Positions 56,179-58,200 of a DNA stretch of 64,000 bases are shown piece by piece; positions within the stretch are counted from its first letter, which is position 1; each line of letters starts with the position of its first letter. Both the position numbers and the translations under genes were made by a program. Under the pieces are notes generated by a model that was given only the letters and a program-made list of their open reading frames with translations, had not been told where the DNA came from and made no database searches. The stretch is from Planctomycetota bacterium (GTDB taxonomy: Bacteria; Planctomycetota; Planctomycetia; Pirellulales; Lacipirellulaceae): the NCBI GenBank assembly GCA_024278955.1, contig JAJRSE010000025.1, forward strand, positions 48,395-112,394. The letters are read 5' to 3'.

Positions 56179-56400
56179 CTTTCATCTCCAAATTCTGTCA
56201 AATTTCTTCAGGCGGGACCTCGGCCAACATCCTAACAAATCTCGATGCCCGCGCGTATCCGGCCAAAAACAAGCTTTTCGACCTGCTGGCAACACCAACC
56301 CGGTTTATTTTACCGCCACGGCAAGCTATCCTTACATTAAGCAAGAACAGCCAACAAACCCAGGGACCTCACTCCCTGCGAAACCAAGGAGACCCAAGCC

Positions 56401-56895
56401 ACGGCCAATAAAAGCAGCAAAAAAAAGGCTTCCAAAGACGACGCGAAAAACGAACGCGCCATCGCGAACAATCGCAAAGCCCGGCACCATTACCTCATCC
56501 TCGATACTCTCGAATGCGGCATCGTGCTCACCGGCAGCGAAGTAAAAAGCCTGCGCAATGGCCAAATCTCCTTGGAAGAAGCCTACGGACGAGTCCTCAA
56601 AGATGAAGTCTGGCTTGTCGGATGCGATATCCAAGAATACAACTTCGCCCACCAGCTCAACCACGCCCCCAAGCGGCCCCGCAAGCTGCTGATGCATCGC
56701 CGCGAAATTCTCAAATTCGCCGCCCAAGCCTACGAAAAAAACCTTACGCTCGTCCCGCTCAAAATGTATTTCGTCCGCGGACGAGCCAAAGTCCTCATGG
56801 GCATCGGCCGTGGCAAGAAACTCTACGACAAACGCGAGTCGCTAAAAAAGAAAGACATGCAACGCGACATGGACCGAGCCGCAAGACGTGGCTAA
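56401..56895 (+). CDS. smpB: SsrA-binding protein SmpB, apparent ACG start
   Basis: In frame from 56401: (M/T)ANKSSKKKASKDDAKNERAIANNRKARHHYLILDTLECGIVLTGSEVKSLRNGQISLEEAYGRV.. No ATG/GTG/TTG/CTG lies between the in-frame stop TAA (56338) and GTG 56524; AAGGAG at 56386-56391. Confidence 0.9.
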   Translation, partial: TANKSSKKKASKDDAKNERAIANNRKARHHYLILDTLECGIVLTGSEVKSLRNGQISLEEAYGRVLKDEVWLVGCDIQEYNFAHQLNHAPKRPRKLLMHRREILKFAAQAYEKNLTLVPLKMYFVRGRAKVLMGIGRGKKLYDKRESLKKKDMQRDMDRAARRG

Positions 56896-56943: not shown

Positions 56944-58200
56944 TCAACCTCGCTCGGCTCGCACCAAAAGCGAAACCGCCTGCCCCGTCCGCTTGTGGTT
57001 CAAAGCCAACACCAAAGGCGACCTCGCAATCTGCGATCCGCTCACCACATTCACCGGGCAAGCCTTGTCGGGTTGTTCGTAGTTCAACGTCGGCGGCACC
57101 ACCCCTTGCCGTGCCCCCATCAGGCTAATCGCCAATTCAGCAGCCCCGCTGCCCGCCCCAAGATTTCCAAAAAAGCTTTTCGGGGCCGTCACCGGCACCT
57201 CGCCCAAAACTTGATCGATCACACGGGCTTCCATTGCGTCGTCGGCAATCGTCCCCACGCCATGAGCATTCACATGTCCAATCTCCTCCACTGACACGTC
57301 GCCCATCGCCAGCGCCGCTTCAATCGCCTGACGAATTGCCTGCCCCGACGGCTGCTGAGTGGTTGCACACGGCTCGCATCGCCGCCCATGCCCCAACACT
57401 TGCGCCTGCACGGCTACGCCCCGTCGACTCGCATGCGCTCGACTTTCAAGAACAAACATCGCCGCTCCCTCGCTTGCCACGCCCCCATCGCGCCCCGCGT
57501 CGAAAGGTCGACACGCCTCGCCCGGGTTCGCAATGTTCTTCGAAAGATCGATCCCACCTTGCCATGCAACATCAATCATCGAAAGCATCGAACTCGCACC
57601 CCCAGCAAGCATCACATCAGCATGACCGCGAGCAATCACGTCGGCTGCTTCGATAATCGCCATCAGCCCCGAAACGTCGCCCTGAACAATCGTATTGATC
57701 GGTCCCCGAGCATCGTGAGCAATCCCCACATGGCAGCACGCCATATTCGGAAGATACTTGAGCATCCACAACGGATACATCTCCCGCATGCCTTCGCCCC
57801 AACGAGCCATATCAAGCTGCCCATTTTCGCTCGCCGCCCGATAGAGATCGGCAAGCTCCTCAATGCGCGAACGAAAATTGCTCGCTCCAATCACCACGCC
57901 CAATCGCTCGGGATCAAGCGGCGCCTCGTCGAGCGTTGCATCAGCCCAAGCCAGCTCCGAAGCCGTAAACCCAAGCTGCGTCTCTCGCGACATCACCTTC
58001 AAGCTTTTACGTGGCTTCACATATTGCTTGGGCTCAAAATCTCGCACCTCCCCGCCGATCGGCACAGGAAAACTCGTCCCTGCCAACCGATCGATCTGAC
58101 GCACCCCGCTACGACGATCCTCCACCGCCGACCAAACCGCTTCGCGGCCGATACCCAGCGGGCAAGCGATTCCAATACCTGTGATGACGACTTCTTGCAC
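56944..58200 (-). CDS. Beta-ketoacyl-ACP synthase family protein, degenerate active site
   Basis: MQEVVITGIGIACPLGIG..; INTIVQGDVSGLMAI where TACATG is expected; HVNAHGVGTIADD; KSFFGNLGAGSGAAE. Confidence 0.9.
   Translation of the reverse strand: MQEVVITGIGIACPLGIGREAVWSAVEDRRSGVRQIDRLAGTSFPVPIGGEVRDFEPKQYVKPRKSLKVMSRETQLGFTASELAWADATLDEAPLDPERLGVVIGASNFRSRIEELADLYRAASENGQLDMARWGEGMREMYPLWMLKYLPNMACCHVGIAHDARGPINTIVQGDVSGLMAIIEAADVIARGHADVMLAGGASSMLSMIDVAWQGGIDLSKNIANPGEACRPFDAGRDGGVASEGAAMFVLESRAHASRRGVAVQAQVLGHGRRCEPCATTQQPSGQAIRQAIEAALAMGDVSVEEIGHVNAHGVGTIADDAMEARVIDQVLGEVPVTAPKSFFGNLGAGSGAAELAISLMGARQGVVPPTLNYEQPDKACPVNVVSGSQIARSPLVLALNHKRTGQAVSLLVRAERG

Follow-up and report, generated by a model that had tools for sequence, protein, structure and literature searches.

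The smpB gene in the window, the stretch of 64,000 nucleotides of Planctomycetota DNA analyzed here, raises the question of where its translation begins. All of the 61 codons between the in-frame TAA upstream (56338-56340) and the first in-frame GTG (56524) were checked, and neither ATG, GTG, TTG nor CTG was found among them, exactly as the earlier note on this DNA had claimed from the bases; its placement of ACG 56401 at 9 nt after AAGGAG (56386-56391) was also confirmed. On the other hand, the same stretch contains three in-frame ATC codons (at 56461, 56497, and 56521) that had been missed. ATC is formally allowed as a start by table 11.

The identification of the frame as SmpB, likewise made earlier from the letters alone, is borne out by the matches to the NCBIfam equivalogs PRK05422 (198.6 bits) and TIGR00086 (181.4 bits) and to Pfam PF01668. 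These curated models were matched by the window protein above cut-off and across the full domain. The window belongs to a draft genome of 146 contigs with 93% completeness, in which smpB appeared as a single-copy, full-length gene and no second smpB was found elsewhere. A tmRNA gene was detected in the same genome (G000:C38:331-691; full-length RF00023, 159 bits). This tmRNA locus (L303) was matched by Rfam at full length, yet unreported by ARAGORN. No Rfam element was found around smpB. A beta-ketoacyl-synthase-like gene (56944-58200, minus strand) is convergent to smpB in the window, the same arrangement is seen in the relative G064 (L254), and the gene appears to begin at GTG in G064 and G028. 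The features discussed below are listed in Table 1.

Table 1. Features of the smpB locus, in positions of the window.
Feature	Position	Strand	Remark
smpB coding sequence	56401-56895	+	164 aa and stop; PF01668, TIGR00086, PRK05422
ACG, proposed smpB start (would be read as fMet)	56401-56403	+	ACG/NTG conserved at this column across Pirellulales
In-frame TAA closing the smpB frame upstream	56338-56340	+	Bases read directly
smpB stop TAA	56893-56895	+	Bases read directly
First in-frame GTG of smpB	56524-56526	+	A gene finder restricted to NTG would begin here
In-frame ATC, rival start; conserved Ile of IANNRKA	56461-56463	+	
Shine-Dalgarno AAGGAG	56386-56391	+	9 nt before ACG; -8.0 kcal/mol with anti-Shine-Dalgarno
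Candidate -10 promoter box TATCCT	56327-56332	+	Would set the transcript start near 56339-56345

If translation started at GTG 56524, the ORF would be of 123 aa and would lack 41 N-terminal residues. The alignment to solved SmpB chains begins at query residues 12-21, namely 20-30 residues upstream of this GTG, and such a start would thus cut into the SmpB fold. We propose instead that smpB is genuinely initiated at ACG 56401 and that this initiation is driven by the Shine-Dalgarno (SD) sequence, a reading to which we assign a probability of about 0.83 on the basis of the sequence comparisons described below.

We read the 5' ends of smpB in frame in relatives from the same family, order, class, and phylum, and regarded the position aligned with the start ATG of the sister orders as the start column. 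Among the 123 readable smpB loci of Pirellulales, the order to which the window belongs according to the organism names of some of these loci, the start column was occupied by ACG in 44 (43 found by script and that of G088 read by hand), ATG in approximately 58, GTG in 14, TTG in 4, ATC in 2, and CTG in 1. The ATC codons are those at or near the column in G039 and G081, and the CTG is that of G074 (L047, L071, and L081 for the three genomes). None of the other Thr codons (ACA, ACC, or ACT) was found at the column in any of the 123 loci. As ACG accounts for only about half of the Thr codons in these smpB genes, its occurrence at the start column is beyond chance. The ACG loci were spread over approximately 10 families, comprising the family of the window (23 of 41) together with f2, f3, f5, f6, f10, f13, f16, f17, and f18; none of the 28 scored members of family f15 had ACG. 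Outside Pirellulales, ACG was absent from all of the 76 loci of other orders and classes, every one of which had NTG. In most of the ACG loci, Ala-Lys codons come next, in the same register as ATG GCC AAG in the sister orders.

The earlier note had left two choices, a true ACG start or an assembly error. An error in assembly or sequencing, with T (i.e., ATG) as the real base, would need only a single base in a genome assembled as a 146-contig draft. Nevertheless, 44 loci of independent genomes across about 10 families share ACG at this column, and the codon is conserved in genomes composed of a single contig (G006, G028, G030, G036, and G041), so that we consider this explanation to have next to no chance of being correct. 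The other choice is strongly supported by the conservation and register of the codon, the strength and spacing of the SD, the stops immediately upstream, and the lack of other starts. Canonical starts at another in-frame position in the relatives had been named as what would speak against ACG; they did not turn up, and the ATG, GTG, and TTG starts of the relatives were mostly found at the equivalent position. The comparison confirms that the ACG case of smpB is broader than first reported and extends over many families of Pirellulales. At least 15 switches between ACG and NTG were counted on a poorly resolved SmpB tree. Since ACG is spread over about 10 families, with NTG in others, we infer that ACG is probably old in Pirellulales and that it has been switched repeatedly, with reversions to ATG, GTG, or TTG.

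The ACG loci are also distinguished by the SD sequence, which mostly lies 7-9 nt before the codon in the 43 loci found by script. The mean SD energy was -7.1 kcal/mol in the 43 ACG loci versus -2.4 kcal/mol in the 56 loci with ATG (p of approximately 1e-11 in a rank test), the former value including some bias from 17 loci in which we chose, from two or more ACG codons in range, that with the best SD, whereas the other 26 had a single candidate. The mean before the GTG starts was -2.1 kcal/mol. Within the family of the window alone, the difference was retained (-7.1 in ACG versus -1.6 in ATG loci; p = 3e-5). An SD at or below -7 kcal/mol was found in 56% of the ACG loci versus 4% of the other Pirellulales loci, and two complete ACG genomes gave a background of about -3 kcal/mol, with 9% at or below -7. 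There is an exception, G028, in which ACG is present without an SD. When phylogeny was controlled for, only three well-supported independent ACG/NTG pairs were available, and the SD association was not significant with so few pairs. The mRNA accessibility around the start did not differ between ACG and ATG loci (0.53 and 0.53). It is a general trend that a stronger SD accompanies weak start codons (PMC5622118), and the strong SD at ACG thus shows compensation, not regulation.

The region upstream of ACG bears on whether smpB begins further upstream, at an in-frame NTG or through readthrough or frameshifting. In-frame NTG codons do precede ACG in 19 of the 43 loci, but the other 24, including the window, have no NTG from ACG back to the in-frame stop, which makes an upstream NTG start impossible there. 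Furthermore, stops are located 2-9 codons upstream of ACG in several loci, and in G085 a stop sits between the SD and ACG (AGGAGCG TAA GCC ACG). Between close relatives, little of the leader is conserved besides the SD and a -10-like box. The latter, in the form TATNCT, occurred at the aligned place in 7 of the 10 close relatives that have ACG; over the 43 ACG loci it was seen in 10, whereas shuffled sequences would give 1.5. If this candidate promoter near the TAA is functional, the upstream in-frame NTGs of several relatives would fall outside the transcript. Altogether, we regard an upstream start as very unlikely. In G006 (L013), a short out-of-frame reading frame with ATG, ATGGGGAGGGACTAG, overlaps the SD and ends 2 nt before ACG.

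A start downstream of ACG has to be weighed as well. The gene could begin, like infC, at ATC 56461, and the Lys-rich tail would then be an untranslated leader. Besides the place of ATC among the starts of table 11, the start position of infC in these genomes is mostly ATC, and SmpB begins just before the NRKA motif in several of the phylum's more remote members. On the other hand, this ATC is not preceded by an SD in the ACG genomes (mean of -2.1 kcal/mol; 5% at or below -5), and stops occur within one tail length upstream of ACG in 21 of the 43 loci but never inside the tail. The Ala-Lys codons behind ACG are in register with those of the relatives bearing ATG, and the genomes that begin at the upstream ATG still have this Ile in the protein. 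Initiation at this ATC is thus improbable in our view, albeit slightly less so than an upstream start. As for infC itself, the start in most of the readable relatives (L218-L239; about eight loci were unreadable) is mostly ATC, sometimes ATA or possibly GTC, and there is no NTG near the conserved N-terminus.

Editing of the smpB transcript from C to U, generating AUG as in plant organelles, would explain why the column holds mostly ACG and NTG, and the ACG starts of plant chloroplasts are indeed edited (PMC9845219). Nevertheless, the same work states that editing of this kind has not been observed in bacteria. Editing would also need no strong SD, and it does not explain the CTG (G074) and ATC (G039 and G081) at or near the column. 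We thus see very little room for editing, and initiation at ACG itself remains the preferred reading.

How ACG could be read leads to the initiator tRNA. With the E. coli initiator as query, we recovered the stem of the Planctomycetia initiator, CGAGG-CTCATAA-CCTCG, in which A29:U41 is found in place of G29:C41 while G30:C40 and G31:C39 are kept. Among the tRNA loci L313-L322 and L337-L366, A29:U41 was present in all readable Planctomycetia initiators, in contrast to the usual three G-C pairs in five members from the phylum's other classes. Departures from the three pairs are known in mycoplasmas and rhizobia. Reviews describe the three G-C pairs as conserved in all initiator tRNAs (PMC4611024, PMC7949028). 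The genomes with ATG in smpB also carry the A29:U41 initiator, and the change may thus be a background, not the cause; it may predispose this class to an ACG start or make such a start tolerable.

The CAU initiator was found in all of the ten genomes first searched and, in the second set, in almost every genome. An initiator-like tRNA with CGU was absent from the matches, which are not an exhaustive list of tRNAs and, for the window, come from a draft genome of 93% completeness. A special initiator reading ACG was also sought with the pattern GGGYTNNTRACCC, the search that led to the observation of A29:U41. It gave five matches, one of which had CGT in the loop, but ARAGORN recognized none of them as a tRNA and still more matches were obtained with the reversed pattern as control, and this candidate was rejected. 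In G030, G036, and G026, the 3' half of the initiator tRNA gene (approximately 43 bases, beginning at the anticodon loop) is present in additional copies, and similar partial matches were seen in G123 and G050 (L323, L324, L325, L329, and L333 for all five genomes). These partial copies are probably attachment-site remnants of integrating elements.

We then consider whether ACG is confined to smpB. Two complete ACG genomes (G064 and G028) were surveyed over 400 kb each, which yielded 222 ortholog-like pairs. Of these, 17 were flagged because in both genomes the alignment extended over more than 8 residues ahead of the first NTG. Only in smpB was a usable NTG start lacking; on inspection by eye, we took the other 16 either to have NTG at the start of the gene or to be spurious frames. 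In this survey, which covers part of two genomes and is blind to cases shorter than 8 residues, the other 221 pairs provided no case of an ACG start, and general use of ACG in these genomes was rejected.

These results bear on a serious rival, namely that ACG is translated but has no regulatory meaning, being tolerated through the altered initiator tRNA and the strong SD. The class-wide A29:U41 and the repeated switching between ACG and NTG, the latter counted on a poorly resolved tree, are consistent with such neutrality. However, a merely tolerated ACG should occur in other genes, contrary to the survey above, and no ACG is seen in the remaining orders of the class, which share the same initiator tRNA. 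We regard the neutral explanation as plausible, although somewhat short of an even chance.

In the reading that we prefer, initiation would proceed as follows. AAGGAG at 9 nt upstream would select ACG 56401, with the strong SD positioning the 30S subunit, and the fMet-tRNA with the anticodon CAU would pair with ACG although the middle base forms a C-A mismatch. The poor codon would then throttle the commitment step and lower the rate of SmpB synthesis, which would probably be sensitive to the level or activity of IF3, as in infC and Streptomyces sigR. We infer from the sequences the use of ACG in vivo with fMet as the first residue of SmpB, and the low SmpB dosage and the sensitivity to IF3 are suggested by analogy. 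The link to IF3 and the possible autoregulation that the earlier note brought up likewise stay at the level of suggestion. We hold an IF3-sensitive role in dosage to be conceivable, not far below even odds. The fuller proposal, that the supply of the partner in trans-translation is set by initiation fidelity through an IF3-gated ACG in a class whose initiator lacks one G-C pair, is more tentative still. In an in-vitro survey of E. coli, the codon bases 1 and 2 tolerated only Watson-Crick pairs (PMC10158994). ACG is therefore expected to be very poor with E. coli factors, and its conservation is surprising, as a mismatch at base 2 is not tolerated in E. coli extracts.

A review regards the central U as the only universally conserved base of the start codon (PMC4611024), and a conserved ACG start in a gene for ribosome rescue would break this rule in free-living bacteria. 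An IF3-gated ACG, if true, would wire ribosome rescue to the stringency of start-codon selection. Pirellulales smpB may thus serve as a natural system joining start-codon fidelity, IF3, and the structure of the initiator tRNA, and hints at other genes hidden behind non-NTG starts. To our knowledge, ACG is absent from the start list of NCBI's table 11, and smpB is therefore expected to appear truncated or extended in the annotations of much of Pirellulales. No prior description of an ACG start in bacterial smpB or in planctomycetes was found in the literature searched, which left out most subscription journals.

The SmpB of Pirellulales resembles that of other bacteria in its full SmpB domain and tail, its single copy, and the tmRNA in the genome, and only the start codon differs. 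Plant organelles likewise have ACG at the start position, but there it is edited to AUG (PMC9845219). The closest parallels are found elsewhere. Like smpB, infC is a gene of translation control with a conserved non-NTG start (AUU/AUC) open to discrimination by IF3, albeit the mismatch is at base 3 of the codon in infC and at base 2 in smpB. In Streptomyces, sigR has a conserved rare GTC start and a strong conserved ribosome-binding site (RBS), is repressed by IF3, and was missed by annotation (PMC5472188). Both sigR and smpB thus combine a rare conserved start with a strong RBS, although the gene and the codon are different and the repression by IF3, demonstrated for sigR, is proposed by analogy for smpB. 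Altogether, smpB fits the type of infC and sigR in two features, a start other than ATG, GTG, or TTG conserved in orthologs and a strong, well-spaced SD.
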